A DNA stretch of 13,284 bases from positions 1 through 13,284 of the forward strand of contig CAUCXP010000020.1 in assembly GCA_958446785.1 (NCBI GenBank). The letters run 5' to 3'. Shown here one piece after another: positions 323 to 13,284 of this stretch. Numbering within the stretch: the stretch's first letter is position 1; each line of letters opens with the position of its first letter. The notes below the pieces were generated by a model, which had not been told where the DNA came from, searched no databases, and saw only the letters and a list, made by a program, of their open reading frames with translations. The position numbers and the translations under genes were made by a program. Source of the stretch: an uncultured Collinsella sp. (GTDB lineage Bacteria > Actinomycetota > Coriobacteriia > Coriobacteriales > Coriobacteriaceae).

Positions 323-335
323 CGTGCGTATAAGT

Positions 336-379: not shown

Positions 380-405
380 TGATGAGATGCTGTGGGGGAA
401 AGCAT

Positions 406-1203
406 ATGGGTCTTGAAGGAATCAAGCTGATTGCATGCGATTTGGACGGTACGTTGCTGCATCCGGGGGAGCACGAGCCGCGTTCCGAGGCCTTTGAGCT
501 CATCGATGAACTGCATCGTCGCGGTATCGTCTTTATGCCGGCGAGCGGTCGTCAATATGCGAGCTTGCGCTATCTGTTTGCCCCGGTGGCCGATGAGCTC
601 GCCTATGTATGCGAAAACGGAGCTCTGGTGATGAGCGAGGGACGTGCCGTTGTCAAGCGTTCCATGGAGCGTAGCCTTGCTATGGATATCGCGAATGCCG
701 TGATTGCGTATCCCCATGCCGACGTGACCCTTTCGTGTGAGGGGCACCTCTACACCATGAGCGGCAACGATGCGTTCGTCGATCATTTGCGCTATGAGGT
801 CCACTGCGATGTGGCGGTGGTCGACCGTCCCGAGGACATCGAAGAGGACGTCATTAAGATTGCCTTCCAGACGCCCGAGGTGAATCAGCCGGCGGCGCTG
901 GAGTATTTTGAGCGCCACTTTAGCGATCGAGTCGATGTCATGACATCGGGAACCGAATGGACGGACTTTATCGGCTTTGATTCGGGTAAGGGTTCCGCGC
1001 TTGCCGATTACGGTCGTGCCCTGGGTATTTCGCCCGATGAGATGATGGCGTTTGGCGATAACGAGAACGACCGCGACATGCTCAACGTAGTGGGCCATCC
1101 TTATCTAATGGAGAGCTGCAATCCCTCTATGCGTGGCATCAACGACCGCGTCCGCTATGTGTACACGGTCGAAGAAGAACTGCGTCGCCTGCTTGCCGAG
1201 TAG
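406..1203 (+). CDS. Cof-type HAD-family phosphatase
   Basis: This 265-residue protein has all haloacid-dehalogenase motifs. Motif I is ACDLDGTLL, with nucleophile D12 and acid/base D14. Motif II is the Ser of FMPASGRQY, motif III is K195 in DSGKGSAL, and motif IV is AFGDNENDRDML with D218 and D222. Length and the large cap between motifs II and III fit the Cof/type IIB subfamily, cytoplasmic phosphatases of sugar phosphates, FMN or similar small phosphoesters; the substrate cannot be read from sequence. I chose the ATG at 406 because GGGGGAA lies 5 bases before it. The frame is open back to 346, but those codons lie inside the terminator hairpin of the previous gene. It is probably a single-gene unit. 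It converges with the PerR-like gene, with only 15 bases between the two stops. Confidence 0.9.
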   Translation: MGLEGIKLIACDLDGTLLHPGEHEPRSEAFELIDELHRRGIVFMPASGRQYASLRYLFAPVADELAYVCENGALVMSEGRAVVKRSMERSLAMDIANAVIAYPHADVTLSCEGHLYTMSGNDAFVDHLRYEVHCDVAVVDRPEDIEEDVIKIAFQTPEVNQPAALEYFERHFSDRVDVMTSGTEWTDFIGFDSGKGSALADYGRALGISPDEMMAFGDNENDRDMLNVVGHPYLMESCNPSMRGINDRVRYVYTVEEELRRLLAE

Positions 1204-1218
1204 GCATGTCCCAAACAT

Positions 1219-1599
1219 CTACCGGCAGTCGGGGCAGAGACCCTCGAAGATGGTGTAGTGCGACGTGACGTGCCAGCCGATTTGCTCGGACGCCTTGGTG
1301 TCGAGCTGGGCATCGAAGGGGAGCGGTACGTCGATGACGCGGCTGCACGAGGTGCAGATGATATGCGCATGCGGCTCGATCGTGCGATCGAAGCGGCTGC
1401 CGCCCGGCGTCTTGATGGAGAGAATCTCGCCGGCGTCGGCCAAGAGATTGAGGTTGCGGTAGACCGTGCCGCGGCTGATTTTGTCATCCTGCGCGCGCAC
1501 GACGTTGTAGATTTCGTCGGCGGTGGGATGGTTATAGCTTTGGCGCACGGCGTCAAGAACCAGCTTTCGCTGCCTGGTATTCCTTCTTTGCACCGCCAT
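1219..1599 (-). CDS. perR: Fur-family regulator of the PerR (peroxide-sensing) type
   Basis: This 126-residue protein has an N-terminal winged helix (about 1-75, with HPTADEIY and SRGTVYRNL) and a C-terminal metal-binding dimerisation domain. Structural zinc ligands are C82/C85 (CTSC) and C122/C125 (CPDC). Using Bacillus subtilis PerR as a guide, the regulatory-metal residues H37, D85, H91, H93 and D104 have counterparts H24, D71, H77, H79 and D90. Keeping Asp at the last position favours a PerR-like Fe-dependent peroxide sensor over Fur, Zur or Nur. Such proteins repress oxidative-stress genes until peroxide oxidises the Fe-binding histidines. GAGGCGAGG lies just upstream of the ATG. A candidate promoter overlaps the end of the acylphosphatase gene 61 bases upstream, so the gene may be transcribed alone or with the upstream genes. 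Family is very sure; PerR rather than Fur is fairly sure. Confidence 0.85.
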   Translation of the reverse strand: MAVQRRNTRQRKLVLDAVRQSYNHPTADEIYNVVRAQDDKISRGTVYRNLNLLADAGEILSIKTPGGSRFDRTIEPHAHIICTSCSRVIDVPLPFDAQLDTKASEQIGWHVTSHYTIFEGLCPDCR

Positions 1600-1635
1600 G
1601 CGCCTCGCCTCTTTTCTATCAACGGTCGTAGGTAA

Positions 1636-1664
1636 ATGATACCGTATTTAGCACACAATACTAA
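1636..1664 (-). promoter_or_regulatory. Candidate perR promoter with an overlapping TTAG/CTAA palindrome
   Basis: Read on the minus strand, TTAGTA (1664-1659), a 17-base spacer and TATCAT (1641-1636) form a plausible sigma70-type promoter; the -10 is good and the -35 weak. An imperfect palindrome, TTAG-N9-CTAA (1648-1664), covers the -35 and the adjacent spacer, where a Fur-family repressor could autoregulate. The -35 overlaps the stop codon of the acylphosphatase gene. The operator role is inference. Confidence 0.4.
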
Positions 1665-2071
1665 TAACGAGGCGTGAAACCGTCTTCATTGGCAAGTGGG
1701 GCTCGGGCCTGGGCGTCTACGAGGCGAAAACGCGTCCCCATACGCTCGTAGGAGGCATGAAGCGCCTCGAGATGAGATAGGATATTTGCCGGAGCTCCCT
1801 GTATCTCCATCTCGACTGAGCCGTCTTCCATGTTACGCACCCAGCCGGTGAGCGCGCGTGCCTGCGCGAGGTTGGTGTTGGTAAAGCGAAAGCCAACGCC
1901 CTGGACTTGCCCCTCCCAGCGTAGGAAATAGCGCAGGGGAGTGTCTTGAGTGGCCTCGTCGCTTGCGAGCACAGTAAGCCTGCGGCGCAGCTCGAGCTCG
2001 ACGTTTGATGGTTTTTGAGGCTCTCGACTGCCGCCGGTGACGCTGGAGAAGAACGTATCGAAGAGGCCCAT
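1661..2071 (-). CDS. Acylphosphatase with an N-terminal extension
   Basis: The protein has 136 residues. From about residue 47 to the end it is an acylphosphatase domain, which hydrolyses acyl-phosphates such as acetyl- or carbamoyl-phosphate in the cytoplasm. The signature VQGVGFRF carries the phosphate-binding R62, and GWVRN carries the catalytic N80; their spacing of 18 matches the classical Arg/Asn pair. Stand-alone family members are usually near 90 residues, so the first 45 or so residues (MGLFDTFFSSVTGG, then a charged helical stretch) are an unexplained addition. The ATG at 2071 lies 2 bases after the stop of the Gfo/Idh/MocA oxidoreductase gene, which suggests translational coupling. 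The frame stays open farther upstream into that gene, but the extra residues are shadow sequence. The domain call is firm; the role of the extension is unknown. Confidence 0.85.
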   Translation of the reverse strand: MGLFDTFFSSVTGGSREPQKPSNVELELRRRLTVLASDEATQDTPLRYFLRWEGQVQGVGFRFTNTNLAQARALTGWVRNMEDGSVEMEIQGAPANILSHLEALHASYERMGTRFRLVDAQARAPLANEDGFTPRY

Positions 2072-2073
2072 AG

Positions 2074-3180
2074 CTATGCCTGCTTGCCTGCGTCGGCCGG
2101 GAAGGTTATGCCGGCCTGCTGGCGCACGGCATCCATGATGCGCAGTGAGACGAGTGTGACATCGCGGTAGTGGCCAAGCTCGTGGCGTCCCGCCGGGGTC
2201 TCCCAAATCTCTTCCTTAACGTTATCGATGCCGCCGATGGCGGTGATAAAGTCTGTGAGTTCGTATTCCATAGTGTTGCTCGATTTGGGCAGGTCGAGCA
2301 CGCGGCCGTTGTCTCCCTGTTCGCGCGGTGCCTCGGTCGCCGAGCCGCGTACGACATCGCCGCGATAGTCGATGCGGACGTTGCGGGGCGTGGACAGATG
2401 GTCGATCTGGATAGTGCCACGCTCGCCTTCGATCTGCGAGGGCAGCAGGTCATTCGTTATTTTGGAGTGCGCGAGCTCGACGGAGATGCGGCCACCGCCG
2501 TAGCTGGCGAGGATGGAACCGCAGCCGTCGATGGGGCCGTGCGTGAGCTGTCGCGTGGCGGGGTCGAGCAGAGTAGCCATGCTCGTAAGGCCGGAGGGCA
2601 TGCCGAAAATCTCGACCATGGGCTCGACGGTGTAGACGCCAATGTCCATGAGGGAACCCGATGCCATATTGCAGTCGAAGATATTGGTGGCGCGTCCCGC
2701 GAGAATCTCGTTGTAGCGCGAGGAATATTTGCCAAAGCGCAATGAGGCGCGGCGGATGGGGGCGATCTCGCCCAGGGCGTCCTCGATGGCGTGGAAGGCG
2801 GGGTCGTGGAGGGGACGCATGGCCTCGAGGGCCACGACACCTGCTGCCTCGGCAGCGCGGAAGACTTCCAGCGCCTGCGCTTCGGTGGCGCAGAAGGGCT
2901 TCTCGACGATGACGTGCTTGCCACCGGCGATGCAGGCAAGGGCCTGCTCGTAGTGAAGTGCGTTAGGGCTGCCGATATAGACGGCGTCGACGTCGGCGGC
3001 TGCCGCGAGCTCATCGAGTGAAGTAAAGTTTCGCTCGCCACCGCGCTCGGCGGTAAAGGCGGCACCGCGATTGGCATCGCGTGAAAGCGTGCCCACAAAC
3101 GCGGCTTGGTCGTTGGCGTTGACGACTTGGATAAAGTCGTCGGTGATCATGGATGTGCCGATGGTCGCGATGCGCAGCAT
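2074..3180 (-). CDS. Gfo/Idh/MocA-family NAD(P)-dependent oxidoreductase
   Basis: This 368-residue protein has an N-terminal Rossmann domain (about 1-120) and a C-terminal alpha/beta dimerisation domain. The nucleotide loop is atypical: IGTSMITDD instead of GxGxxG, a variant I associate with a subgroup of this family. SPNALHYEQA and the family hallmark VEKP (E93-K94-P95, K94 likely catalytic) follow. GSLMDIGVYTVEPM is the usual second-domain active-site segment. Members oxidise or reduce sugars, inositols or related polyols; the substrate here is unknown. AAGGGGGAC lies before the ATG at 3180. The frame is open for another 169 codons upstream through rnhA, but those residues are low-complexity shadow of that gene. 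It is followed at 2 bases by the acylphosphatase gene, so the two are probably cotranscribed. It is 73 bases downstream of rnhA. Confidence 0.9.
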   Translation of the reverse strand: MLRIATIGTSMITDDFIQVVNANDQAAFVGTLSRDANRGAAFTAERGGERNFTSLDELAAAADVDAVYIGSPNALHYEQALACIAGGKHVIVEKPFCATEAQALEVFRAAEAAGVVALEAMRPLHDPAFHAIEDALGEIAPIRRASLRFGKYSSRYNEILAGRATNIFDCNMASGSLMDIGVYTVEPMVEIFGMPSGLTSMATLLDPATRQLTHGPIDGCGSILASYGGGRISVELAHSKITNDLLPSQIEGERGTIQIDHLSTPRNVRIDYRGDVVRGSATEAPREQGDNGRVLDLPKSSNTMEYELTDFITAIGGIDNVKEEIWETPAGRHELGHYRDVTLVSLRIMDAVRQQAGITFPADAGKQA

Positions 3181-3253
3181 ACGTCCCCCTTGCGTTGTTT
3201 GGTCTACAGGATGAGTGTAGCGCGTGGGGATATAAAGCTGCGCGAAAACGCTA

Positions 3254-3739
3254 TTACAGGTCGCTCTCGTTAAAGCCGGCGTCGATATCGAGGTTACTGC
3301 CGTCGGCCGCCGTGGTGGCGAGCTCATCGCAGCGCTCGTTGAGCTCGTGACCGGCGTGACCCTTAACCCAGATGAACTCAACCTTGTGCTTGCTTTTGGC
3401 GGTGAGTAGGCGCTCCCACAGGTCGCGGTTCTTGACGGGTTGCTTGTTGGCGGTTTTCCATCCGCGCTTTTTCCAGCCGTCGATCCAGTGCTTGTTAAAG
3501 GCGTTGACGACATACTGCGAATCGGAATGGACTTCGACCTCGCAGGGGCGGTTGAGCGCCTCGAGCGCCACGATGACGGCCATGAGTTCCATGCGGTTGT
3601 TGGTGGTCTTGGCGTAGCCGCGCGAAAGCTCGGAGGTGAAGGTCTTGCCGGCGGGGTTGGTGTATTTGAGCACGGCGCCGTAGCCACCGCGTCCCGGATT
3701 TGATCGGGCCGAGCCGTCGGTGTAGATGATGACCTTCAC
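3254..3739 (-). CDS. rnhA: Ribonuclease HI
   Basis: This 161-residue protein cleaves the RNA strand of RNA:DNA hybrids, removing R-loops and primers. The catalytic acidic residues are all present: D8 (YTDGS), E51 (NNRMEL), D73 (SDSQY) and D138 (ERCDELA), plus the assisting H128 (VKGHAGH). The basic handle region [16 protein letters not shown] (about 89-104) is also seen, as in Escherichia coli RNase HI. The start is GTG at 3739, preceded by AAAGGAAG at about 4 bases; no better in-frame ATG exists. The C-terminal tail after residue 145 is short and acidic. A candidate -10 hexamer (TACAAT) lies about 40 bases upstream. It is the first gene of a same-strand run with the oxidoreductase, acylphosphatase and perR; whether they form one operon is inference. 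Confidence 0.95.
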
Positions 3740-3777
3740 GGGCTTCCTTTCGTTGAGTGCATTTCATGTGAGTGACC

Positions 3778-3783
3778 ATTGTA
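3778..3783 (-). promoter_or_regulatory. Candidate -10 element for rnhA
   Basis: The minus strand reads TACAAT here, 38 bases upstream of the GTG start of rnhA and inside the 99-base gap after the LysR gene. I see no convincing -35 at 16-18 bases; TTGTTA is present but 20 bases away. The gap contains no clear LysR terminator. Confidence 0.3.
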
Positions 3784-3838
3784 GCGCCATGCCCGCCGGG
3801 GGCTAACAATCTACGATTTCTACCCCGTCTTCCGACAG

Positions 3839-4741
3839 TTAGTTGGCATGGATGATGCGGTTGAGCTCGTCGAGGTATTGCTGCAAGAGGGGAGAGGGCT
3901 TGCGCTCGTCGTGCATGATATAGCCTACGCGCATCGTTGGGGCGTCTGCTAACGGGATCGATGCCATACCCCATTGCATTTCATTGGAGAGGACGCCGGT
4001 CGACAGGGTGTAACCGTTCGACGTGATAAGTAAGTTAGTAAGTGTTCCGCGGTCCGAGATTCGTATGTTGCGGTCGCAAGGGATATAGCTAAAAGGTTCC
4101 TCGGCGTAATAGAAGGAGTTTGAGGTTCCCTGCTCAAAGCTGTAGCGCGTATAGGGCGTGAGGTCGGCAAGGGACAGCTGAGGGCGGCGGGCGAGCGGGT
4201 GGCGCTCGCTAACGAAGACGTGGACCGTCGCGTCGAATAGGGGATGGAAGCTTGCACGGGCATCGGCGAAGGCCTTCTGCAGAACGCGGGCGTTAAAGTC
4301 ATCCAGATACAGAATGCCGATATCGCTGCGAAACGCACGGACGTCATCGATGATCTGCGATGTGGTGGTCTCGCGCATGATGAACTCGAACTTGCTGTCG
4401 CGGCAGCGCTCGACCACGTTGACAAAGGCCTCGACCGAAAAGGCGTAGTGCTGGGCGGAAATGGCGAGGCGGGCTTGCGGGGTGCCGCCGTCCTCGTAGC
4501 GCGCCTCGAGCATGTCGGCCTGCTCTACGACCTGGCGCGCATAGCCCAAAAGCTCGGTGCCGTCGTTGGTGAGCGTGACGCCGCGGCTGGAGCGCGTAAA
4601 GATCTCCAAATGGAGCTCCTGTTCCAGGCTTTTGACGGCATTGGAGATATTGGACTGAGCGGTATAGAGGCGCTGAGCTGCGGCGTTGATTGAGCCGGAC
4701 TCTGCCACGGCGATAAGAAAACGAAGCTGCTGGAGGGTCAT
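3839..4741 (-). CDS. LysR-family transcriptional regulator, probable regulator of metY/sulfur metabolism
   Basis: The 300-residue length is typical of LysR proteins. Residues 1-60 form the winged helix-turn-helix (MTLQQLRFLIAVAESGSINAAAQRL, recognition helix AQSNISNAVKSLEQEL, wing FTRSSRGVTLTNDG). About 90-296 is a periplasmic-binding-protein-like effector domain with SDIGILYLDDFN and SFEQGTSNSFYYAEEPFSY. AAAGGAC lies about 8 bases before the ATG. The gene is divergent from metY across 275 bases containing several palindromes, the classical arrangement of a LysR regulator with its target. Known LysR regulators of sulfur amino-acid genes (CysB, CmbR, MetR types) sense O-acetylserine, sulfur metabolites or homocysteine. 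Family is certain; metY as target is a strong contextual inference; the effector is unknown. Confidence 0.9.
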   Translation of the reverse strand: MTLQQLRFLIAVAESGSINAAAQRLYTAQSNISNAVKSLEQELHLEIFTRSSRGVTLTNDGTELLGYARQVVEQADMLEARYEDGGTPQARLAISAQHYAFSVEAFVNVVERCRDSKFEFIMRETTTSQIIDDVRAFRSDIGILYLDDFNARVLQKAFADARASFHPLFDATVHVFVSERHPLARRPQLSLADLTPYTRYSFEQGTSNSFYYAEEPFSYIPCDRNIRISDRGTLTNLLITSNGYTLSTGVLSNEMQWGMASIPLADAPTMRVGYIMHDERKPSPLLQQYLDELNRIIHAN

Positions 4742-4757
4742 CGGTGCCCGTCCTTTC

Positions 4758-4791
4758 GATAGCTATCTAAAAAACCGATAACAGGTTAGCG
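4758..4791. promoter_or_regulatory. Candidate LysR binding sites (two palindromes)
   Basis: GATAGCTATC (4758-4767) is a perfect 10-base palindrome. CGATAACAGGTTAGCG (4776-4791) is a near-perfect one (6 of 7 arm positions match around a central AG). Both lie just upstream of the LysR start, on the LysR side of the metY promoter. LysR proteins bind such dyads as tetramers and often autoregulate. Assignment is by position and symmetry only. Confidence 0.35.
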
Positions 4792-4802
4792 CTTTTAAGT
4801 GA

Positions 4803-4831
4803 TTGACCGAGCGAAACAATGCTCGTACTAT
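4803..4831 (+). promoter_or_regulatory. metY promoter with a CGAGC-N8-GCTCG inverted repeat in the spacer
   Basis: TTGACC (4803-4808), exactly 17 bases, then TACTAT (4826-4831) is the best sigma70-type promoter in the window. Transcription would start near 4838 and give a leader of about 180 bases before metY. The spacer is nearly filled by an inverted repeat, CGAGC (4808-4812) and GCTCG (4821-4825). A protein bound there would cover the RNA polymerase contact region, so the dyad is a candidate operator. Confidence 0.7.
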
Positions 4832-4900
4832 TCAAAACACACAAAGGCGGTAGGTAATTAAGCCGACCACGGAACCGGGATGTCAAAAGGAGGACCGCAT

Positions 4901-4954
4901 ATGAACTGCTTGCCAAGACGAATGCCGGGCTCCTGTTTGCGCCCGTTGGCGTGA
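4901..4954 (+). CDS. Upstream ORF / Cys-containing leader peptide of metY (17 codons)
   Basis: This is a short ORF, MNCLPRRMPGSCLRPLA then TGA, inside the transcribed leader of metY. AAAAGGAGG (4885-4893) lies 7 bases before its ATG and is a better SD than that of metY itself (AAGGAG, 5005-5010). It encodes Cys at codons 3 and 12 and an internal Met at 8. Cys-containing leader peptides controlling sulfur genes by attenuation have been described in mycobacteria, which gives a precedent. The Cys12 codon overlaps CTCCTG (4930-4935), which can pair with CAGGAG just after the stop (4956-4961); its CTCCT part can also pair with the AGGAG of the metY SD. A ribosome stalled or moving here could therefore change access to metY. 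I see the ORF, SD and complementarity; translation and regulation are inference. Confidence 0.5.
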   Translation: MNCLPRRMPGSCLRPLA

Positions 4955-5016
4955 TCAGGAGACAGCGACTTACTTTTCTCTTATTTATTTACTTTCGTTC
5001 GATCAAGGAGATCATC

Positions 5017-6327
5017 ATGAGCCAGTTCATCAACAACCCCGAGCACACCTTTGGTTTCGATACCCTGCAGCTTCATGTTGGCCAGGAGAGCGCCGACCCC
5101 GCATCCGACTCCCGCGCCGTGCCTATCTACCAGACCACGAGCTATGTGTTCCGCAACTCCCAGCACGCCGCCGACCGCTTTGGTCTTGCCGACGCCGGTA
5201 ACATCTACGGCCGTCTGACCAACTCCACCCAGGGCGTCTTTGAGGACCGTATCGCCGCGCTCGAGGGTGGCGTGGCCGGTCTTGCCGTCGCCTCCGGTGC
5301 CGCTGCCATCACCTATACCCTGCAGGCTCTTGCCCAGGCCGGTGACCACGTGGTGGCTCAGAAGACCATCTACGGTGGCTCCTACAACCTGCTGGAGCAT
5401 ACGCTCTCCCAGTTTGGCGTCGAGACCACGTTTGTCGATGCTCATAACCTGGAAGAGGTTGAGGGTGCCATCAAGGACAACACTACGGTCATCTACCTCG
5501 AGACGCTCGGCAACCCCAATTCCGACATTCCCAACATCGACGCTATCTCCGAGGTCGCCAAGAAGCACGGTCTTCCGGTCGTCGTCGATAACACCTTCGG
5601 CACCCCGTATCTGTTCCGTCCGCTGGAGCACGGCGCCAACATCGTCGTTCACTCCGCAACTAAGTTCATCGGCGGCCACGGTACCTCGCTGGGCGGTGTG
5701 ATCGTCGACGGCGGTAACTTCGATTGGAAGGCGAGTGGCAAGTACGCCCAGATCGCTGAGCCCAACCCCTCCTACCATGGCGTCTCGTTTGCCGAGGCTG
5801 CCGGTCCCGCTGCCTTCGCGACCTATGTCCGCGCCATCTTGCTGCGCGACGAGGGCGCCTGCATCAGCCCGTTCAACGCCTGGGTCCTGCTCCAGGGCAC
5901 CGAGACTCTGTCGCTGCGCGTCGACCGTCATGTCGAGAACACCAAGAAGGTCGTTGAGTTCCTGGCTGGTGACAGCCATGTCGCCAAGGTGAACCACCCG
6001 AGCCTGTCTGAGCACCCCGATCACGAGCTCTATCAGAAGTACTTCCCCAACGGTGGCGCGTCGATCTTCACCTTTGAGATTAAGGGTGGCCAGGAGGCAG
6101 CTTGGAAGTTCATCGATCATCTGCAGGTGTTCTCGCTGCTCGCCAACGTGGCCGACGTCAAGTCGCTCGTCGTGCACCCGGCTACCACCACGCACTCCCA
6201 GCTCTCTGCCGAGGAGCTCGCCGAGCAGAACATCACGCCCTCCACGATCCGTCTTTCCATCGGTACCGAGAACGCCGAGGACATCATTTGGGATCTGAAG
6301 CAGGCCTTCGCCGCGCTGGACGAGTAA
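5017..6327 (+). CDS. metY: O-acetylhomoserine sulfhydrylase (O-acetylhomoserine aminocarboxypropyltransferase)
   Basis: This 436-residue PLP enzyme of the Cys/Met-metabolism class converts O-acetylhomoserine plus sulfide (or methanethiol) to homocysteine (or methionine) in the cytoplasm. It opens with FDTLQLHVGQESADPASDSRAVPIYQTTSY, typical of MetY. YGRLTNSTQGVFEDRIAALEGG, SGAAAITYTLQALAQAGDHVV and the PLP segment VDNTFGTPYLFRPLEHGANIVVHSATKF follow, with K216 as the Schiff-base lysine. The length near 430 and the insert around 230-270 (GNFDWKASGKYAQIAEPNPSYHG) separate MetY from the shorter cystathionine synthases and lyases. AAGGAG lies 6 bases before the ATG at 5017; the frame is open back to 4951 but without an SD. 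Codon choice is strongly biased, suggesting high expression. Regulation probably comes from the divergent LysR gene and the long leader. A strong terminator follows. Substrate preference (O-acetyl rather than O-succinyl) is a family inference. Confidence 0.93.
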   Translation: MSQFINNPEHTFGFDTLQLHVGQESADPASDSRAVPIYQTTSYVFRNSQHAADRFGLADAGNIYGRLTNSTQGVFEDRIAALEGGVAGLAVASGAAAITYTLQALAQAGDHVVAQKTIYGGSYNLLEHTLSQFGVETTFVDAHNLEEVEGAIKDNTTVIYLETLGNPNSDIPNIDAISEVAKKHGLPVVVDNTFGTPYLFRPLEHGANIVVHSATKFIGGHGTSLGGVIVDGGNFDWKASGKYAQIAEPNPSYHGVSFAEAAGPAAFATYVRAILLRDEGACISPFNAWVLLQGTETLSLRVDRHVENTKKVVEFLAGDSHVAKVNHPSLSEHPDHELYQKYFPNGGASIFTFEIKGGQEAAWKFIDHLQVFSLLANVADVKSLVVHPATTTHSQLSAEELAEQNITPSTIRLSIGTENAEDIIWDLKQAFAALDE

Positions 6328-6387
6328 GGCGACTTGTGCAAGGACCCCTTGCGACTCGATAGGTATAACTGCATAAAATGCCTGCTC

Positions 6388-6428
6388 AAGGCGCCTGCGC
6401 AAGCAATGGTTGCGCAGGCGCCTTTTTT
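6388..6428 (+). terminator. Strong intrinsic terminator after metY
   Basis: A perfect 15-bp stem, AAGGCGCCTGCGCAA (6388-6402) and TTGCGCAGGCGCCTT (6410-6424), has a 7-base loop and runs directly into an uninterrupted T tract (TTTTTT). It lies 60 bases after the metY stop, so metY is a single-gene transcript. Confidence 0.95.
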
Positions 6429-6639
6429 GCATAGAGAGGGTGCAAAAACAGGGTTTTTGACACGCTTTATGCATTCGAGTTGTGGAAAACTCCTGTTGAG
6501 AGGATGTGAGTTTTACGCAATTGACGTGCGCCTTTTGAGTAAAACCGCAGGTCGCGATTTGCTCGAGGTACTATGCAGCGCGATCGAATCACACGCAGCT
6601 CAAACGCAGCAAAAACGCACTACGGAGGTTTCCAGCTAC
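6429..6639 (+). promoter_or_regulatory. Non-coding leader/promoter region of the secreted 3D-like protein, with several inverted repeats
   Basis: The gap between metY and the next gene is 312 bases; after the metY terminator about 210 bases remain with no credible ORF. CAAAAAC-AGG-GTTTTTG (6443-6459), flanked by GTG and CAC, makes a tight hairpin overlapping a TTGACA at 6457. GAGTTTTAC (6508-6516) can pair either back to AAAACTC (6486-6492) or forward to GTAAAAC (6539-6545), so two hairpins compete. TACTAT (6569-6574) is a good -10 hexamer but lacks a recognisable -35. I cannot match this to a riboswitch class I know. Confidence 0.35.
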
Positions 6640-7416
6640 ATGAGGATCGATTCACGAAAACCGAAAGCCGCCGCCCTTTCCGCCGCTCTGACCGTGGCGC
6701 TTTTGGCGGGCGCCGGCGCAACTGATGCCCACGCGGCAACACTGTCCGATACGGTTGGATCTACGCCGTCCGAGACGACGCTGGTACAGCCCGTTGATTA
6801 TCGCGGCGATGGTTATGGTTCCATGCAGGAGTGGAACGCCTCGATGGAGGCCAAGCGCGATTCCCTTGAGATGCGCGCTCAGATTATCCTAAACATGTAT
6901 GGTGACTATGCCACCGATGACGAGCGCGCTGTGCTGCAGGGTTGTATCGATGGTGCGGGCAGCCTTTTGACGATGGGGGAGGTCGACGCGAAGTCGACCG
7001 AGCTCGATGAGCTGCGCACTGCGCTTGAGAATGCCAAGCGCGAAGCGCTCGAGGCCGCTGCCGCCGAGGCAGAGGCTGCCGAGGCCGCCCAGGCTTCGTA
7101 CTACAACGCCGGCTACACTCCGTCCTACGCGTCTGCCGCGTCCTACGCGAACGGATCGGGCCTGACGCGCTCTGCGGGTGTCAATAACTACAACGGGCGC
7201 CGCGAGACCTATTACAGCAGCAATGTGCTTTATCACTATCGCACGGGCGAATGGACTCAGGATTCTGAGGGCTTCTGGCGCGATTCCGACGGCTATTACG
7301 TTGTTGCCGCGGGCGATATGGCCCAGGGCTCGACCTTTACGGGCTCCAAGGGTGATTGCAAGGTCTATGACTCCGGCTGCGTCGCCGGAACCACCGACTA
7401 CTACACCGGTTGGTAA
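6640..7416 (+). CDS. Secreted cell-wall-associated protein with coiled coil and C-terminal 3D-like domain
   Basis: This 258-residue protein begins with a Sec signal peptide: basic residues, a hydrophobic core from about 10 to 28, and probable cleavage after AHA (residue 32). Residues 60-130 or so are polar and helical, and about 130-160 is an Ala/Glu-rich coiled coil. A Tyr/Ser/Gly-rich linker (about 160-200) follows. The last 50 residues end in a segment resembling the 3D domain of RpfB/YabE/YuiC-type muralytic proteins: the three Asp of that fold are at D226 (VVAAGD), D244 (VYDSG) and D253 (TTDYY), with an extra Cys pair, C240 and C247, that could form a disulfide. A peptidoglycan-related role outside the membrane is therefore likely, but the domain match is by eye. 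GGAGG lies 11 bases before the ATG at 6640; the frame is open back to 6334 through the metY terminator, so that extension is rejected. Confidence 0.75.
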   Translation: MRIDSRKPKAAALSAALTVALLAGAGATDAHAATLSDTVGSTPSETTLVQPVDYRGDGYGSMQEWNASMEAKRDSLEMRAQIILNMYGDYATDDERAVLQGCIDGAGSLLTMGEVDAKSTELDELRTALENAKREALEAAAAEAEAAEAAQASYYNAGYTPSYASAASYANGSGLTRSAGVNNYNGRRETYYSSNVLYHYRTGEWTQDSEGFWRDSDGYYVVAAGDMAQGSTFTGSKGDCKVYDSGCVAGTTDYYTGW

Positions 7417-7446
7417 TCTGCCATCAGAGCAAAATAGGCACATGAT

Positions 7447-7497
7447 GGGCGGGCGTCTTTACTGAGCTTTTAGGCAACGTAAAGCCGCCCTTTCTTT
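7447..7497 (+). terminator. Intrinsic terminator after the secreted 3D-like protein
   Basis: The two-part stem is GGGCGG (7447-7452) with CCGCCC (7485-7490), and, after a 4-base bulge, CTTTAC (7457-7462) with GTAAAG (7479-7484). It is followed by TTTCTTT. It lies 30 bases after the stop codon. Confidence 0.8.
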
Positions 7498-7607
7498 ATG
7501 TGCGTTTGAGTTAACAGAGCCCTTACCGTGGCGGTACGCTGGGCGTATGCATGCGGGGCACACTGGTTCATGAGAAATAGGGTCTTTCTCTTGGAGGAAG
7601 TGATCTT

Positions 7608-7814
7608 GTGAATGCTCGAGATATTGCCGTTGCCGCCGTCGCATTGGTACTTGGCTGTCTTGGCCCTACAGCTGCGTTTGTCGCAGGCATGCAGGGCTCG
7701 TGCGGGGCTGCTCCTATTGTGGTCGGCGCGCTCATCGCAGCAGCGCTGCTGGGAAGTGCGGGCGTGACCCTTTGTCGCGATGACGAGGACGAGACGCCGC
7801 AGGTGCAGCGCTAG
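7608..7814 (+). CDS. Small two-helix membrane protein, function unknown
   Basis: This 68-residue ORF begins with GTG at 7608, with GGAGGAAG 8-10 bases upstream; no in-frame ATG precedes the first helix. Two hydrophobic segments, residues 7-28 (AVAAVALVLGCLGPTAAFVAGM) and 35-56 (an Ala/Leu/Val-rich run ending GVTLC), are joined by a short GSCG turn and followed by an acidic tail (RDDEDETPQVQR). Cys17 lies in helix 1, Cys32 in the turn and Cys56 at the end of helix 2. The short N-terminus and the acidic tail suggest a hairpin, but topology cannot be settled. It is bounded by a terminator on each side, so it has its own transcript. I do not recognise the family. The SD, membrane pattern and bounded position make it likely to be real. 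Confidence 0.6.
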   Translation: MNARDIAVAAVALVLGCLGPTAAFVAGMQGSCGAAPIVVGALIAAALLGSAGVTLCRDDEDETPQVQR

Positions 7815-7854
7815 CCGTTGTGAAGCTGGTTTTGCCCATAGATGAAGAAGGAAG

Positions 7855-7889
7855 CCGCCGCAAGGGGAGTGCCCTTTGCGGCGGTTTTT
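7855..7889 (+). terminator. Intrinsic terminator after the small membrane protein
   Basis: CCGCCGCAAGGGG (7855-7867) and CCCTTTGCGGCGG (7872-7884) form a 13-bp stem with one G-T pair and a 4-base loop, followed by TTTTT. It lies about 40 bases after the stop and 33 bases from the end of the convergent ketopantoate-reductase-family gene. Confidence 0.9.
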
Positions 7890-7922
7890 GCTATTGAGAC
7901 TGTTGGATGCGGTACGGCGGCG

Positions 7923-8837
7923 TTACCAGCTGGCCTCGATTTCGCGGATGCGCGAATAGAGCCATTCGTTTTGCGGCACCTGGATACCGTGCTTGGTCGC
8001 GAGGCGGCAGATGGTACCCGCAAATTCCTCGACCTCGGTTCTGCGTTGAGCGATGCGGTCTTGCGCCATCGAGGGCATGCCGGCGGGATCGAGCCCTTTT
8101 ATGAGACGCACCATCTGCGTCAGGTCTTCCTCGGTGAGCTCGATGCCCTCGGCATTGGCGACTGCAAGCGTCTCGCGCATGGCGGAGACAAAACTGCGGA
8201 GCTGCTCGGAGCCCTGCTCCGTAGCGCTTCCGTAGGTGCCGCCGTAGGCCATACAGGTCTGGTTGATGCCGTCGTTGAGCATGAGTTTGGCCCACATGCG
8301 ATGTGCGATGTCGTGCTCGACGGTATGGGCGATGCCGCAGCGCGTGTAGAGCCCGTCGATAGCGGTGACGGTCGCGGGGTCGGTGCCGGCGGCCGCACCA
8401 AAGCGGATCTCGCCCGCATTGGTAAAGGCGAGCGCGCCGTTGAGAAACACAGCGTCCATGCCTTGGCAGATTCCGATGACGGTGTGCTCCCAGACAAAGC
8501 GCTCGGCAATCTTTTGCTCGCTGGTGATGCCGTTGCATAGGGATGCGATGAGCGTGTCGGGCCCTACGATGCGTTCCATAGTCTTGAGCGCCTGGTCGAG
8601 TCCGGTTGTCTTGACCGTGAGGATGACCAGGTCGACGGGCGTCGCCTCGCTCGCGCGGACGGACTTGAGCGCGCAGGGCTTGCCGTTGACGGTGAGCGCA
8701 TCACCCGCGTGGCGCTCAAAGCGCGCGTCGTCCATAACGTATTCGATGGCGTCGTTGCCGAGCGCTTGGGCGATCATGCTGCCGTAGAGCAGGCCCACGC
8801 CGCCCTTGCCGATGAAGGCGACCTTGTTGATCTGCAT
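7923..8837 (-). CDS. Ketopantoate reductase (PanE/ApbA) family protein
   Basis: The protein has 304 residues, the usual PanE length. The N-terminal NADP-binding loop is VAFIGKGGVGLLYGSM, then LVILTVKTTGLDQAL and the family's NGI segment (SLCNGITSEQKI). The C-terminal helical domain has RMWAKLMLNDGINQ, with the expected catalytic Lys in AKLMLN, and TEVEEFAGTICRLATKHGIQVPQNEWLYSRI, the conserved substrate/cofactor end of the family. PanE reduces ketopantoate to pantoate for coenzyme A synthesis; paralogues act on other 2-keto acids, and no other pantothenate gene is here, so I leave the symbol empty. I chose the ATG at 8837, 9 bases after GGGGAG; the in-frame ATG at 8846 directly abuts that SD. 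A terminator-like hairpin ends 2 bases before the SD. Family firm, exact substrate unsure. Confidence 0.85.
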   Translation of the reverse strand: MQINKVAFIGKGGVGLLYGSMIAQALGNDAIEYVMDDARFERHAGDALTVNGKPCALKSVRASEATPVDLVILTVKTTGLDQALKTMERIVGPDTLIASLCNGITSEQKIAERFVWEHTVIGICQGMDAVFLNGALAFTNAGEIRFGAAAGTDPATVTAIDGLYTRCGIAHTVEHDIAHRMWAKLMLNDGINQTCMAYGGTYGSATEQGSEQLRSFVSAMRETLAVANAEGIELTEEDLTQMVRLIKGLDPAGMPSMAQDRIAQRRTEVEEFAGTICRLATKHGIQVPQNEWLYSRIREIEASW

Positions 8838-8854
8838 GTGAATCATCTCCCCAT

Positions 8855-8881
8855 AAAAAGGCGCCCGCGTATGGGGCGCCT
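8855..8881 (-). terminator. Terminator-like hairpin between the cyclase and PanE-family genes
   Basis: On the minus strand AGGCGCCC (8881-8874), a 7-base loop, GGGCGCCT (8866-8859) and then TTTTT (through 8855) form an intrinsic terminator of 8 bp. It lies 73 bases after the cyclase stop codon. Its T tract ends 2 bases before the GGGGAG SD of the PanE-family gene (8852-8847), so it is also inside that gene's 5' leader and could act as an attenuator. Confidence 0.75.
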
Positions 8882-8954
8882 GATGGATTGTATGCCGCCG
8901 GGCCATGTCGCGTGCACCGGATGGCCGTATTTAGAAGAACAAACGCATGGGAAC

Positions 8955-9725
8955 TTATGACGCGGGGCAGACCGCAAAGACACGTGCGGGATATCCGACG
9001 CCATCACGCACCTTGGGGAAGGTGCAGAAGATGACGGCGCCCGTGGCGGGAAGCTCGTCCAGATGGTCCATGACCTCAATCTGGTAACGGTCGACCGAGA
9101 GGATGTACTGTTCGCCGGGGTAGGGGTAGGCATCCTCGCGTGTGGTCACGGTTGCGGGGTCGGTGTCTGCCGGTTCGTGGCCGATGGCACCGATGTTGCG
9201 CTCTTCTACAAGCCATTTGATGGCATCGAGGTCCCAGCCGGGGTAGTGGGGCTGGCCGTCTTCGTCCTTGTTTTCGAGGTCGGCGAGCTTGGACCAGTCG
9301 GAGCGGAAGGCGACGAAAGCATCCTCAGGAATGCGACCGTGCTCGTCCTCCCAAGCCTTGAGGTCATCGATGGTCAGGATAAAGTCGGGGTTTGCGGCGC
9401 ACTCCTCGTGCTTGTCGATCACACAGAGCGGATGCATAAACTCGATAGGTTCGATCTCGCCAAGGGAACGGCCATCGACATGGAAGTGGCGCGGCGCGTC
9501 GACGTGGGTGCCGTACTGCGAGGCGACCGAATACTGGAAGCAACGCATGGGCGCGAGCATGTCCTCGGGCGTGCCGGGCAGGTAGTCGAAGAGCTTGGTG
9601 GACTCAAATGGCTCAAAGCCAAACCAGTGCGGGGTGTCGCACGAGAGCGTATGGGTGAGGTCAACCCAGCGATAATCGGTGCTTTTGAGCTGGGATGCGA
9701 GGTTCCAAAGGTCGAGCGCGGGCAT
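8955..9725 (-). CDS. Cyclase-family (KynB/isatin-hydrolase-like) metal-dependent hydrolase
   Basis: This 256-residue protein belongs to the cyclase family (arylformamidase KynB, isatin hydrolase and relatives), which hydrolyse amide or lactam-like bonds using Zn or Mn. The family metal motif HxGTHxDxPxHF is present as SQYGTHVDAPRHF, with H74, D76 and H80 kept, but the first His is Gln (Q70). DLTHTLSCDTPHW near the N-terminus, AFRSDWSK and AIGHEPADTDPA are other recognisable family blocks. AAAGGAG lies 6 bases before the ATG at 9725. No tryptophan-degradation gene is nearby, so kynurenine formamidase cannot be assumed. It is divergent from the Fe-S aldo/keto reductase gene, with 163 bases between the starts, and shares the strand with the PanE-family gene. 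Family sure, substrate unknown. Confidence 0.82.
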   Translation of the reverse strand: MPALDLWNLASQLKSTDYRWVDLTHTLSCDTPHWFGFEPFESTKLFDYLPGTPEDMLAPMRCFQYSVASQYGTHVDAPRHFHVDGRSLGEIEPIEFMHPLCVIDKHEECAANPDFILTIDDLKAWEDEHGRIPEDAFVAFRSDWSKLADLENKDEDGQPHYPGWDLDAIKWLVEERNIGAIGHEPADTDPATVTTREDAYPYPGEQYILSVDRYQIEVMDHLDELPATGAVIFCTFPKVRDGVGYPARVFAVCPAS

Positions 9726-9888
9726 GGGTGGCTCCTTTCATCGGGCTTTTTGCTGATGTTAAAGCGGTGCCGTGACAGCTCGATTTCTGCTGCGTTACGA
9801 TACGTTCTCGATTGCGATTCCACGATGTTTCGGCCGCGTGACCATTGTGTTTCGCCTTGCCGGGGCGCTGATGGCGAAGGGAGGGGCC

Positions 9889-11076
9889 GTGCAATACCGC
9901 GGTGACCCCAAAAGTGGTAACCGAATATCTGCTCTGGGTCTGGGCTGCATGAGGTTTCCCGGTTCGCCGGGACACCCCGATGCGAAGACAGCCGATGCCA
10001 TCATTTCCCGTGCGGTGGAGCAGGGGATTAATTATCTGGATACTGCGTATCTCTATCCCGGTAACGAGGCGTGCGTGGGCGCCTCACTTGAGCGCTTGGG
10101 GCTGCGCGACCGGGTGTTGCTGGCGACCAAGTTGCCGCACGCTTCGTGCAAGCGCGCGGAGGATTTCGACCGGTTCTTCGACGAACAACTGCGTCGCCTG
10201 CGGACCGACCATATCGACTATTACCTTATGCACAACATCACTTCGCCCGCTCAGTGGGAGCGCGTGGTGGCGTTGGGTATCGAGGACTGGATCGCGCGTC
10301 AAAAGGCGGCGGGGCGCATTCGCCAGATTGGTTTTTCGTACCACGGCAGCGCGGCTGATTTCCTGACGATGCTTGACGCATATGACTGGGATTTTTGCCA
10401 GATACAGTACAACTATGCCGGCGAGCGTTACCAAGCGGGAACGGCAGGACTCATGGCGGCTGCGGAGCGCGGGCTCGCGGTGTTTGTGATGGAGCCGCTG
10501 CTGGGCGGGCGTCTGGCAGGCAAGCTGCCGCCGCGGGCCCGCGCCGTGCTCGATGGCGCTCGTGACCCGCATTTGCGCACTCCTGCCGCTTGGGGGCTTT
10601 CGTGGGTGTGGAACCATCCTCAGGTGACGATGCTGCTTTCGGGTATGACCAATACCGCGCAAGTGGATGAGAACGCGGCGTTGGCCGATCGGGCCCTGCC
10701 GGATTCGATGACAGTTACTCAGCTTGATGCCATCGCACGCGTGCTGACGGAGTTTGAAAAATCGAATCGCGTGCCCTGCACGGGATGCGGCTACTGCATG
10801 CCATGTCCCAAGGGTATCAACATTCCCGCCTGCTTTGCCGCCTACAACGCGAGCTATGCGCACAGCTGGTTTACGGGGCTGTCGCAATACTTTACGGCGA
10901 GTGCGGTGCGCACGAGCGAGCCCAAGCTGGTGAGCAATTGCGTCAAGTGCGGCAAATGCGCGCGCCACTGCCCGCAGCATATCGATATCCCCGAGCGTCT
11001 CGATGACGTGCGCCGACGCTTCCAGCCGGGCCCCGTAACGGCCGCGCTTAAAGCCTTTTGCAAAACGCGTTCCTGA
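9889..11076 (+). CDS. Aldo/keto reductase with C-terminal 2x[4Fe-4S] ferredoxin-like domain
   Basis: This 395-residue protein starts with an aldo/keto-reductase barrel (about 1-285). The tetrad is intact: D51 and Y56 (YLDTAYLYPG), K81 (LATKLPH) and H115 (YLMHNI). The C-terminal part binds two iron-sulfur clusters: C297, C300, C303 and C306 (CTGCGYCMPCP), and C351, C354, C357 and C361 (CVKCGKCARHCP). Such fusions are common in anaerobes and probably link carbonyl reduction to ferredoxin-type electron carriers; the substrate is unknown. I chose the GTG at 9889 because AGGGAGG lies 4 bases before it and the protein then begins VQYRGDPKSGNRISALGLGCMRF, the usual N-terminus of this subfamily. The ATG at 9871 has no SD. 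The stop codon is the first part of a hairpin repeat that leads into the next gene, suggesting cotranscription. Confidence 0.9.
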   Translation: MQYRGDPKSGNRISALGLGCMRFPGSPGHPDAKTADAIISRAVEQGINYLDTAYLYPGNEACVGASLERLGLRDRVLLATKLPHASCKRAEDFDRFFDEQLRRLRTDHIDYYLMHNITSPAQWERVVALGIEDWIARQKAAGRIRQIGFSYHGSAADFLTMLDAYDWDFCQIQYNYAGERYQAGTAGLMAAAERGLAVFVMEPLLGGRLAGKLPPRARAVLDGARDPHLRTPAAWGLSWVWNHPQVTMLLSGMTNTAQVDENAALADRALPDSMTVTQLDAIARVLTEFEKSNRVPCTGCGYCMPCPKGINIPACFAAYNASYAHSWFTGLSQYFTASAVRTSEPKLVSNCVKCGKCARHCPQHIDIPERLDDVRRRFQPGPVTAALKAFCKTRS

Positions 11077-11166
11077 TGCCCCTTTTATAACTCGCGGTGG
11101 AATAGCTTCTGTTTGCGGCAGAATAGGGGCCAAACAGGAACTATTTCGCCGCAACTGAAGGGGGCT
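11072..11166 (+). repeat. Paired leader hairpin element, copy 1 (before the second Gfo/Idh/MocA gene)
   Basis: This element starts at the aldo/keto reductase stop codon with TGATGCCCCTTTTATA. A 22-bp hairpin (11094-11115 with 11131-11152; one mismatch and three G-U type pairs) has a 15-base loop. AACTGAAGGGGGC follows. CCCCTT (11079-11084) can pair with AAGGGG (11158-11163), the SD of the next gene, enclosing the hairpin. A homologous copy lies at 12231-12330. No T tract follows, so it is not a standard terminator. Confidence 0.8.
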
Positions 11167-11169
11167 GTC

Positions 11170-12189
11170 GTGGGCCATCGGGATTCATGTGATGATTTGC
11201 GTGAGGTTCGTTGGGGCGTTTTGGGCGCTGGGCACATTTCTCATCGATTTGCATCGTCGCTCAAGAAGGTCGACGGGGCACGGTTGGTGGCTGCGGCCGG
11301 TCGCACTCCTGCACATGTCGAGGAATTTTGCCGAGCGTTTTCGATCGATGCTGCGCATGGCCATGCCTCGGTCGACGATAACGGCAATGCGGCTTATGAC
11401 GCGCTGATTGCCGACCCCGATGTCGACGCAATCTACTTGGCGCTTCCGCATGGCATGCATACGCGTTGGGCCTGTCGCGCGCTGTGCGCCGGAAAGGCCG
11501 TGCTGTGCGAAAAGCCGGCCGTTTTGAGTGAGGAAGAGGCTCTCTCGATCGCCTCCACCTCTCGCGAGCGCGGCGTGCTGTTTATGGAGGCAATGAAGAA
11601 TCGGTTTTGCCCGATGCGCGCTCGCGTGAAGGACTTGTTTGCGTCGGGTGAGCTTGGCCGTATTGTCTCGATTGAAAGCGTGCAAAAGCTCGATTACGGC
11701 GAGTCTCCTTCGGGCTATCTGCTTGATCCGTTGCAGGGCGGCTGTCTATATGACATGGGCTGCTATGCGGTCGGTTGGTTTGAGGATTTGCTCGCGGGCG
11801 CTTGCGAGGTTTCGTCCCGTGAAGTTCGCTGGCGTGACGTATCGGGCGGTCGCGTCGATTGGGCCGACGAGATCCATATGAGCGTCGGCGGTATACCCAT
11901 TCATATGGTGTGCGACGGCGAAGCAACATATGAAAGCCGCTTAACGATTGCCTGTGAGCGGGGCTCGTTGGAAATCGAGCGCCTCCATCGCCCCGAGCTC
12001 GCTCATGTGAAGTATTCCGACGGACGAATGCTCGAAATAAATGCCCCGTTTGAGGTCGATGATTTCTACGGCGAAGCTTCGCATGCGACCCAGCTCATCC
12101 GGGCGGGGAAACTCGAGAGTCCCGTCATGCCTCTTGCCGCCACGCAGCGCTGTGCGCAGATCATCGATGCGATTCGCTTGACGCTCTAG
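11170..12189 (+). CDS. Gfo/Idh/MocA-family oxidoreductase (second, distinct copy)
   Basis: This 339-residue protein has a Rossmann nucleotide loop (WGVLGAGHIS, G19/G21/S24), DVDAIYLALPHGMHTRWACRALCAGKAVLCEKP with the family K115, and a second-domain segment GGCLYDMGCYAVGW. MEAMKNRFCP (family pattern MEAxxxRFxP) resembles the dihydrodiol-dehydrogenase/glucose-fructose-oxidoreductase-like branch, unlike the IGTS-type copy at 2074-3180. The substrate is unknown. The start is GTG at 11170, 5 bases after AAGGGGG; the frame is open back to 11113 but only through the hairpin element. The first 12 residues before the Rossmann strand (VGHRDSCDDLRE) are a short polar lead. It lies between the aldo/keto reductase and endonuclease IV genes and is flanked on both sides by the paired hairpin element, which may control it. 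Confidence 0.88.
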   Translation: MGHRDSCDDLREVRWGVLGAGHISHRFASSLKKVDGARLVAAAGRTPAHVEEFCRAFSIDAAHGHASVDDNGNAAYDALIADPDVDAIYLALPHGMHTRWACRALCAGKAVLCEKPAVLSEEEALSIASTSRERGVLFMEAMKNRFCPMRARVKDLFASGELGRIVSIESVQKLDYGESPSGYLLDPLQGGCLYDMGCYAVGWFEDLLAGACEVSSREVRWRDVSGGRVDWADEIHMSVGGIPIHMVCDGEATYESRLTIACERGSLEIERLHRPELAHVKYSDGRMLEINAPFEVDDFYGEASHATQLIRAGKLESPVMPLAATQRCAQIIDAIRLTL

Positions 12190-12230
12190 GCTGCGGTACT
12201 GGTGCTCAAGGGGGCTCGGCGGACCGTGCC

Positions 12231-12330
12231 CCTGATGCCCCTTTTATATCTTGCGGTGGAATACGGTCTGTTTGCGCCAAAATAAGGCACCAATAGACCG
12301 TATTTCACCGCAACTGATGAGGGGGAGCTG
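12231..12330 (+). repeat. Paired leader hairpin element, copy 2 (before endonuclease IV)
   Basis: Starting CCTGATGCCCCTTTTATA, as in copy 1, it holds a 19-bp hairpin, TTGCGGTGGAATACGGTCT (12251-12269) with AGACCGTATTTCACCGCAA (12295-12313), containing a single G-T pair. The 25-base loop keeps the copy 1 pattern TTTGCG.CA.AATA.GG..CCAA. AACTGATGAGGGGGAG follows, holding the SD of nfo. CCCCT (12238-12242) can pair with AGGGG (12320-12324). Upper-stem bases differ from copy 1 but pairing is kept. Confidence 0.8.
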
Positions 12331-12333
12331 GAG

Positions 12334-13200
12334 ATGCTGACGATCGGGTGTCATCTTTCGACGACGAAGGGCTATCGGGCAATGGGGGAGACGGCGTTGT
12401 CCATTGGTGCCAATACCTTTGCGTTCTTTACGCGCAACCCGCGCGGTGGCAAGGCAAAAGACCTTGACATGGATGACGTGGCGGCTCTGCGCGAGCTTAT
12501 GGCGCAAAACGACTTTGGACCGCTGGTGGCGCATGCCCCGTATACCTATAACCCCTGCTCCGCTAAGGAGCGGGCGCGCGAGTTTGCCTTGGAGGCTATG
12601 GCGGAAGATTTGCAGCGTCTGGAAGCACTGCCCGGCAACTACTACAACTTCCATCCCGGTGCGCATGTGGGACAGGGGGCAGACGCCGGCATTCAGATGA
12701 TTGTCGACACGCTGTGCCAGGTGATGTTTGGGGGCCAGCAGACGATGGTATTGCTCGAGACCATGGCGGGTAAGGGCACCGAGGTGGGCCGTAGCTTTGA
12801 AGAGCTGGCGTGCATTATCGAGGGCGTTGCCGCCAAGTGTCCAGAGCTGTCCGATAAACTGGGCGTTTGTTTGGACACCTGCCATGTGAGCGATGCCGGC
12901 TACGACATCATCCATGATCTGGACGGCGTACTCGACGAGTTCGACCACGTGGTGGGCATCGATCGCCTGCATGCCGTACACATCAACGATTCGAAGAACC
13001 CTTGTGGCGCCCATAAAGATCGTCACGAGTGCATCGGCAAGGGATACCTTGGCAGCGAGGAATTTGGCGGCGGTATGCAGGTTATGCAGAATATTGTATC
13101 GAATAGCCGCTTGCGTGCACTTCCATTTATTTTGGAGACGCCGAACGAACTTGCAGGTTATGCAGCGGAAATTACGCTATTAAGGTCGTTACAGCAGTAA
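12334..13200 (+). CDS. nfo: Endonuclease IV (AP endonuclease)
   Basis: This 288-residue TIM-barrel, trinuclear-zinc enzyme of base-excision repair cuts the backbone at abasic sites and some oxidised bases. Family metal-binding blocks appear in order: H67 in [72 protein letters not shown] and FILETP. Together they supply the expected His, Glu and Asp ligands. The length is near the usual 280-285. AGGGGGAG lies 6 bases before the ATG at 12334. That SD can pair with the CCCCT opening the hairpin element upstream, so translation may be structure-controlled. It is 144 bases downstream of the second Gfo/Idh/MocA gene on the same strand. After the stop, the last 84 bases of the window hold no gene or terminator that I can see. 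Confidence 0.95.
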
Positions 13201-13284
13201 CAACTGTCACAAAGTGGAGTGTTCCATTCACGTTATGGGATTGTTTCAATCAGTTTTCTCATTGCAGATTCGTAATTCAGGGTG

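Follow-up and report, generated by a model that had tools for sequence, protein, structure and literature searches.

Two hairpins before adjacent genes in a Collinsella contig as probable copies of a dispersed REP-type palindrome

In a 13,284-nucleotide stretch of an uncultured Collinsella sp. (contig CAUCXP010000020.1, positions 1 to 13,284; hereafter the window), two similar hairpins lie shortly ahead of two adjacent genes, encoding a Gfo/Idh/MocA-type oxidoreductase and deoxyribonuclease IV (nfo). The question raised by this locus is whether the hairpins are leaders that control the genes behind them or copies of something that is found elsewhere. The initial annotation had given a new family of cis-regulatory leader RNAs as its headline candidate, with a palindromic extragenic repeat and a dyad operator as further possibilities. 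Once the relatives are counted the apparent leader RNA looks like a repeat family. The two hairpins are very probably copies of a dispersed repetitive extragenic palindromic (REP)-type element with a layout near that of REPINs (REP doublets forming hairpins), and Collinsella, which is common in the gut, would thus have a REP-type family of clade-limited range.

A dispersed palindrome with one core

A DNA search of the nearest genome examined (G001; 71% of sampled words common with the window) found the second window element identical over 116 bases, together with many dispersed relatives. A covariance model, R1, was then available from an ungapped 63-column alignment of 48 representative copies, and a search of this kind, suggested in the initial annotation, matched in 22 of 42 Collinsella genomes. 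Twenty-one of these are multi-copy genomes with 35-96 strand-wise matches each. Because the palindrome is usually matched on both strands, strand-wise matches number about twice the copies, giving about 17-48 copies per genome; these are lower bounds, as the best 127 candidates per genome were scored in the Collinsella set and the best 21 in the class set. In G001 the 56 strand-wise matches correspond to 28 copies, and an IS3-family insertion splits one more. This insertion sequence lies inside the loop (L021:1524-2822) with an apparent TTT duplication, and the same site is uninterrupted in L053 and L125.

Across 246 genomes of the class, representing 110 genera, stricter filters gave matches in 21 genomes, all of one genus, and none in the 109 other genera; with the best 21 candidates per genome scored, weak matches outside the genus could be missed. 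Within this sample, only part of the genus Collinsella carries the family. In G013, which is not one of the multi-copy genomes, a lone copy (L255:3394-3456) lies beside feo-type iron transport genes, named by eye. Its core is much like those at L015, L092 and L126, and horizontal transfer is possible. A 17-base pattern search of named genomes returned at least 120 loci, many on Collinsella aerofaciens contigs; loci titled as other organisms are absent from the list of full hairpins and were not used. Since tens of further family copies exist, the similarity of the two window copies is not due to chance. A microbiome RNA survey (PMC8040213) names one Collinsella candidate, which is 51 bp long and precedes the L7/L12 gene; 250 palindromic candidates are listed in its supplement. 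The repeat may sit among these; no published description of it was found in the literature searched.

The core is 63 bp in 136/142 distinct copies, orthologous copies counted. (The full-hairpin list holds 100 distinct copies, and 79 asymmetric ones were used for the flank profile.) Its outer 13 bp, TTGCGGTGRAATA and the complement, vary little, the spacer is variable, and conservation is highest in the inverted half-sites. The flanks are polar: on one side the arm is first C-rich and then T/A-rich, and the opposite side has CTGATGAGGGG. This polarity matches the wobble in 24/24 asymmetric copies, but those copies trained the flank score.

Over the 23 pairs of the hairpin, 91.2% of cells are paired versus 33-44% when the arms are slid. 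Cells with a double change number 64 versus 31.3 in shuffles and the covariation score is 0.207 versus 0.108; for each of these three measures 0/500 shuffles were as high. Overall, covariation is above shuffles on three of five pair measures, a test in which related sequences can surpass the shuffles without structure. The pairing-preserving changes that had been taken to imply selection on structure are thus real, but they are concentrated in one place: 58/64 double-change cells fall in columns 14-17 with 47-50, where a 4-bp block (GGGA, CGGA, GTTC or CGGT) swaps as a unit. At the second window site, two orthologues (L165 and L166) have a stem and loop that resemble the first-site element, which points to gene conversion as the probable cause. 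Block exchange together with the need for a closing hairpin suffices to explain the compensation, which alone is no sign of function at the RNA level. The covariation would arise equally in a DNA hairpin or through gene conversion.

Placement among genes and between strains

All 28 copies in G001 are intergenic by our home-made gene calls, 18 between tandem genes, 9 between convergent genes and 1 between divergent genes. For comparison, 121 element-free intergenic regions of at least 20 bp comprised 72 tandem, 20 convergent and 29 divergent regions; this background includes some regions near copies, and one of its five stretches (L258) was excluded, as the gene finder called only 34% of it coding. 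Copies are depleted between divergent genes (p=0.017), and their enrichment between convergent genes in G001 is not significant (p=0.07). A distribution of 23 tandem, 12 convergent and 1 divergent was seen in 36 site clusters across the loci collected, which were merged from 175 occurrences because the same site is repeated in overlapping loci; both window sites fall in one cluster.

Tandem copies in G001 are nearer the upstream stop than the downstream start in 15/18 cases (sign test p=0.0075, Wilcoxon p=0.016), the median distance from the core being 38 bases to the stop and 178.5 bases to the start. Window copy 2 has its counterpart among the three exceptions. Among all copies that adjoin a stop, the core is within 20 bases of it in 14/27. 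The distance from core to downstream start in tandem sites spans 15 to 443 bases. The initial annotation was correct that both window copies are close to start codons (right outer arm 5 and 8 bases away, core 15 and 20). As tandem copies mostly lie nearer the stop, this closeness is a property of two short gaps and not of the family. Neither is there a consistent strand: the G.U-forming strand is the transcript in 5/8 asymmetric tandem copies in G001 and in 4/13 cluster counts (4 to 9). A preference for one RNA strand, sought through the G.U/A.C asymmetry, was rejected on this inconsistency, and no fixed position or strand relative to the downstream start codon was found.

Comparison of related strains revealed sites that are occupied in some and empty in others. 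At one site the element is present in L030, L119, L128 and L129 and the site is empty in L055; at another it is present in L034, L053 and L120 and absent in L021, L125 and L148. Together with the many copies, the wide range of distances to the downstream start and the lack of a consistent strand, these empty sites support the palindromic extragenic repeat among the candidates of the initial annotation and speak against its leader RNA family.

Twenty genomes (L153-L172) align across the full 1601-base stretch that holds both window sites. In G021 (L174), there is no Gfo/Idh gene at the place matching window positions 11161-12189, and a single hybrid element is left, whose left flank is that of site 1 and whose right flank is that of site 2. 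This fits recombination between two direct copies, whether as gene loss or gene gain, and suggests that the window copies probably also served as recombination sites. Eight more distant loci (L175-L182) have no such element in the ~200 bases before nfo, where the sequence looks unrelated by eye.

The two window copies and rival explanations

The elements that had been placed at 11072-11166 and 12231-12330 were found there, and the shared blocks TGATGCCCCTTTTATA and GCGGTGGAATA, the loop pattern and TATTTC.CCGCAACTGA were confirmed in both. Along the forward strand the order is aldo/keto reductase gene, copy 1, Gfo/Idh oxidoreductase gene, copy 2, nfo, and all three genes have the same orientation (Table 1). 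The left outer arm of copy 1 starts 2 bases past the aldo/keto reductase stop codon (11074-11076).

Table 1. The two elements and the genes around them in the window
Feature	Positions	Strand	Remarks
Aldo/keto reductase with 4Fe-4S domain, upstream gene	9871..11076	+	Pfam PF00248, PF13187
Copy 1, left outer arm CCCCTTTTATAAC	11079..11091	+	arm composition analysed
Copy 1, 63-bp palindromic core	11092..11154	+	one of 48 rows behind covariance model R1
Copy 1, right outer arm CTGAAGGGGG	11155..11164	+	source of the Shine-Dalgarno-like AAGGGGG of the downstream gene
Gfo/Idh/MocA-type oxidoreductase, gene between the copies	11170..12189	+	Pfam PF01408; GTG start is the analyst's choice
Copy 2, left outer arm CCCCTTTTATATC	12238..12250	+	arm composition analysed
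Copy 2, 63-bp palindromic core	12251..12313	+	one of 48 rows behind covariance model R1
Copy 2, right outer arm CTGATGAGGGGG	12314..12325	+	source of the Shine-Dalgarno-like GAGGGGG of the downstream gene
Deoxyribonuclease IV (nfo), downstream gene	12334..13200	+	Pfam PF01261, TIGR00587

Each copy folds as a single long hairpin with an outer stem that includes CCCC/GGGG. The minimum free energy is -53.2 kcal/mol for copy 1 and -59.8 kcal/mol for copy 2 (z -4.54 and -7.91), and 0/200 shuffles are as stable. The claim that the differing upper stems each pair with their own partner arm holds insofar as each copy folds on itself, but the upper stem of copy 1 is imperfect, with one mismatch and one wobble. 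Most orthologues of copy 1 have a fully paired upper stem, AGTTCCTG/CAGGAACT, and judged from this alignment copy 1 is slightly decayed relative to them. No Rfam family reached its gathering score in the window. Below-threshold matches to microRNA families were discounted as generic similarity to long hairpins.

By eye, AAGGGGG and GAGGGGG are the best Shine-Dalgarno-like sequences ahead of the two downstream starts. Both are predicted to be mostly paired, with an unpaired probability of 0.00-0.43 in 19 sequences of site 1 and 0.00-0.19 in 21 sequences of site 2, the window included; 4/23 sequences of site 1 and 2/23 of site 2, whose flank strings were unmatched, were left out. The window copies may therefore mask the ribosome-binding sites that they supply, which is plausible from the predicted folds. 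With the upstream stop 2 bases before the left arm at site 1, terminating ribosomes could free the start there.

This masking is what would make the hairpins cis-regulatory leaders. In that explanation each hairpin, lying in the mRNA leader, controls the gene downstream: the Shine-Dalgarno sequence of its right arm is hidden by the left arm CCCCTTTT. At copy 1 there would be translational coupling, as ribosomes that reach the end of the upstream gene would occupy the left arm and so expose the next start. The predicted pairing at both sites and the alignment of 20 genomes over both agree with this. The rest of the family does not, since 15/18 tandem copies in G001 are nearer the stop behind them than the start ahead, 9/28 lie between convergent genes and the transcribed strand is inconsistent. 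Coevolution of the outer stem is unsupported in the family: outer arms pair with their own partners not clearly better than with permuted ones (121/2000 permutations pair as well). At site 1, a CCCC/ACCC difference in the left arm among orthologues has no matching change in the right arm. Leader RNA is for these reasons an unlikely explanation of the hairpins. A position close to stops would suit an ordinary transcription terminator, or a hairpin that stabilises mRNA 3' ends, copied to many gene ends, and 14/27 stop-adjoining copies in G001 have their core within 20 bases of the stop. Yet a run of at least 4 T within 12 bases was found on only 6/36 transcribed 3' sides, so the family is not an intrinsic terminator, and sequence conservation in both arms together with presence and absence at sites indicates a mobile repeat. 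We consider this explanation improbable, while mRNA stabilisation may be a by-product.

Two further explanations take the palindrome as DNA. In one, GCGGTGRAATA half-sites form a dyad operator bound by a regulator upstream of target genes. The conservation of the inverted half-sites, greater than elsewhere in the element, is what such an operator would show, but in G001 just 1/28 copies has divergent neighbours, 9 have convergent ones, a setting in which no promoter is expected, and tandem copies favour the stop side, so that an operator is barely credible. In the other, the element is a miniature inverted-repeat element of a DDE insertion sequence, as its short, palindromic and dispersed form and the lack of any visible coding capacity might suggest. 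Three scanned genes between close pairs of copies are not recognisable transposases (one Gfo/Idh gene, one helix-turn-helix regulator and one without a match), and the sole transposase found between half-elements belongs to the IS3-family insertion that interrupts a copy. No target duplication was seen, and no search of all Collinsella insertion sequences for these ends was made. A DDE origin is very improbable.

Candidate mobiliser and relation to known repeats

The candidate mobilisers are REP-associated tyrosine transposases (RAYTs). Genes for Y1 transposases (PF01797) occur in 36/42 genomes, and not all are RAYTs. One RAYT type, L151, which lies in a suf locus (suf neighbours named by eye), is present at 71% identity or more in 20/21 multi-copy genomes and 0/21 others. 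Its match to the NCBIfam model REP_Tyr_transpos is 55.4 bits, below the cut-off of 80, and a search of solved structures with the L151 protein gave no match. The second RAYT of G001, L152, is matched at 93% identity or more, along most of its length, in just 10 other genomes. This gene (L152:1087-1878) has palindromes of its own on both sides, CATTGGGGACAGACTTA...ATGAGTGCTTTC, recognised by eye, and is probably a separate REP-RAYT pair; the element arms do not resemble these palindromes. Among the 31 of 83 PF01797 matches that were read as loci, a copy within 1.5 kb was found only at L184, beside an IS200-like gene, where a variant copy lies ~290 bases past the transposase frame.

A sister group of Collinsella has another REP, GGGAAAATAGGGACAGGCAC, which was searched as the pattern GGGAAAATNGGGACNGTCCC with up to 2 mismatches. 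It occurs in 9/42 genomes, five of them rich (G030, G036, G037, G041 and G042, with 23 to 124 strand-wise pattern matches each) and four with few matches, and in none of the 21 multi-copy carriers of the window element. In 20 stretches (L271-L290), the span is 63-66 bp for ten G030 pairs selected by their spacing and 75-103 bp for three G036/G037 pairs, and single units and other arrangements also occur. Variants of this REP flank RAYT genes in L192 and L194. The GGGA-type arm of the window family matches the RAYT-flanking form GGGAAAATAGGGACTGTCCC at 15/17 bases, and 0/5000 plain letter shuffles, used throughout this test, were as good. The two repeats are alike in their inverted pairs, in the AAATAGGGAC motif shared with the GGGA-type arm and in their genus. 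They differ in the RAYT-flanking variants and single units of the sister REP and in its outer and inner sequence.

Several results weigh against placing the hairpins in a REP-type family moved by a RAYT. The resemblance to the sister REP is clear for some arm types and weak or absent for GTTC and CGGT: against the GGGAAAATAGGGACTGTCCC form, 28 (GTTC) and 31 (CGGT) of 5000 shuffles were as good, and against the main form GGGAAAATAGGGACAGGCAC the score was reached by 3 (GGGA), 22 (CGGA), 652 (GTTC) and 2075 (CGGT) of 5000. G031 has 51 strand-wise matches without an L151-type gene, and the co-occurrence with this gene links the two weakly, being confounded by common ancestry, as both traits are clade-specific. 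The element directly flanks the gene at 0/20 L151-type loci; its closest copy is 2.2 kb away, and 11/20 L151-type stretches (up to ~8 kb per side, shorter at contig ends, one 3.6 kb long) contain no copy. No GTAG or CGTC tag was found beside the hairpin, whose foot by eye is mostly TAAG, TAAC or TCAG ahead of TTGCGG. A target duplication is unreadable at empty sites, as the neighbouring bases differ too. Finally, shuffles were not exceeded for pairs with a double change (8 vs 7.5) or for pair types (25 vs 24.2).

On balance, the dispersed palindrome would work as follows. Two inverted conserved arms, TTGCGGTGRAATA, around a variable spacer form a unit of 63 bp, in a family presumably akin to the REP of the sister group. 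We lean slightly towards its spread as a non-autonomous element, with a RAYT-type HUH transposase, supplied in trans, acting on the hairpin as single-stranded DNA. The need for the hairpin to close, and an exchange of blocks between copies by gene conversion, would keep variants of the upper stem in the family; one likely case of such conversion was seen, and the process may be general. At this locus the copies would also have acted as recombination sites, as the hybrid junction suggests, and their G-rich right arms would act as Shine-Dalgarno sequences, which the left arms are predicted by folding to cover. A bolder proposal treats the family as a separate kind of REPIN in Actinobacteria. The single RAYT of the suf locus would mobilise it in trans, recognising a long conserved foot and an exchangeable 4-bp stem block without a GTAG tag, and at this locus the copies would have been recruited as Shine-Dalgarno-masking switches for two adjacent genes. 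Taken as a whole this is quite unlikely.

E. coli REPs have roles in mRNA stability and in the correction of quasi-palindromes. The window family could serve the study of three other matters: REP spread with a non-adjacent RAYT, gene loss or gain driven by repeats, as with the Gfo/Idh gene in G021, and the reuse of repeat arms as ribosome-binding sites. As for its place among known systems, leader RNAs, riboswitches and T-boxes in Rfam share with it a hairpin near a start codon and differ in that none gave a gathering-score match in the window. The family is repeated, extragenic and palindromic, as REPs are, and has inverted units with a constrained spacer and a RAYT in the genome, as REPINs do; a RAYT gene flanked by the element was not found. 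Because RAYT adjacency and the GTAG tag were looked for and were absent, the element is filed as REP-type and REPIN-like, and not as a proven REPIN or a member of a RAYT-REPIN pair.

REPINs have been described as REP doublets in inverted orientation, whose spacers are variable but constrained in length and in which compensatory changes are common (PMC3116915). The window family shares with them the inverted conserved arms, constrained length, extragenic position, tens of copies, compensatory changes and RAYTs in the same genomes, and is unlike them in having no copy directly beside a RAYT and in its conserved foot TTGCGGTGRAATA. How far TnpA-REP recognition relies on the GTAG tag and on the hairpin varies (PMC8266576). 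PMC3733652, whose main text does not name Actinobacteria, places REPs with GTAG/CGTC tags mostly between tandem or convergent genes, close to 3' ends, and notes GT pairs and alternative bases in the stems. Their units are 20-40 bp long, whereas the element is 63 bp and lacks the tag. Like them, the window family is palindromic and intergenic, lies between tandem or convergent genes near 3' ends, and has subfamilies with alternative complementary stem bases.

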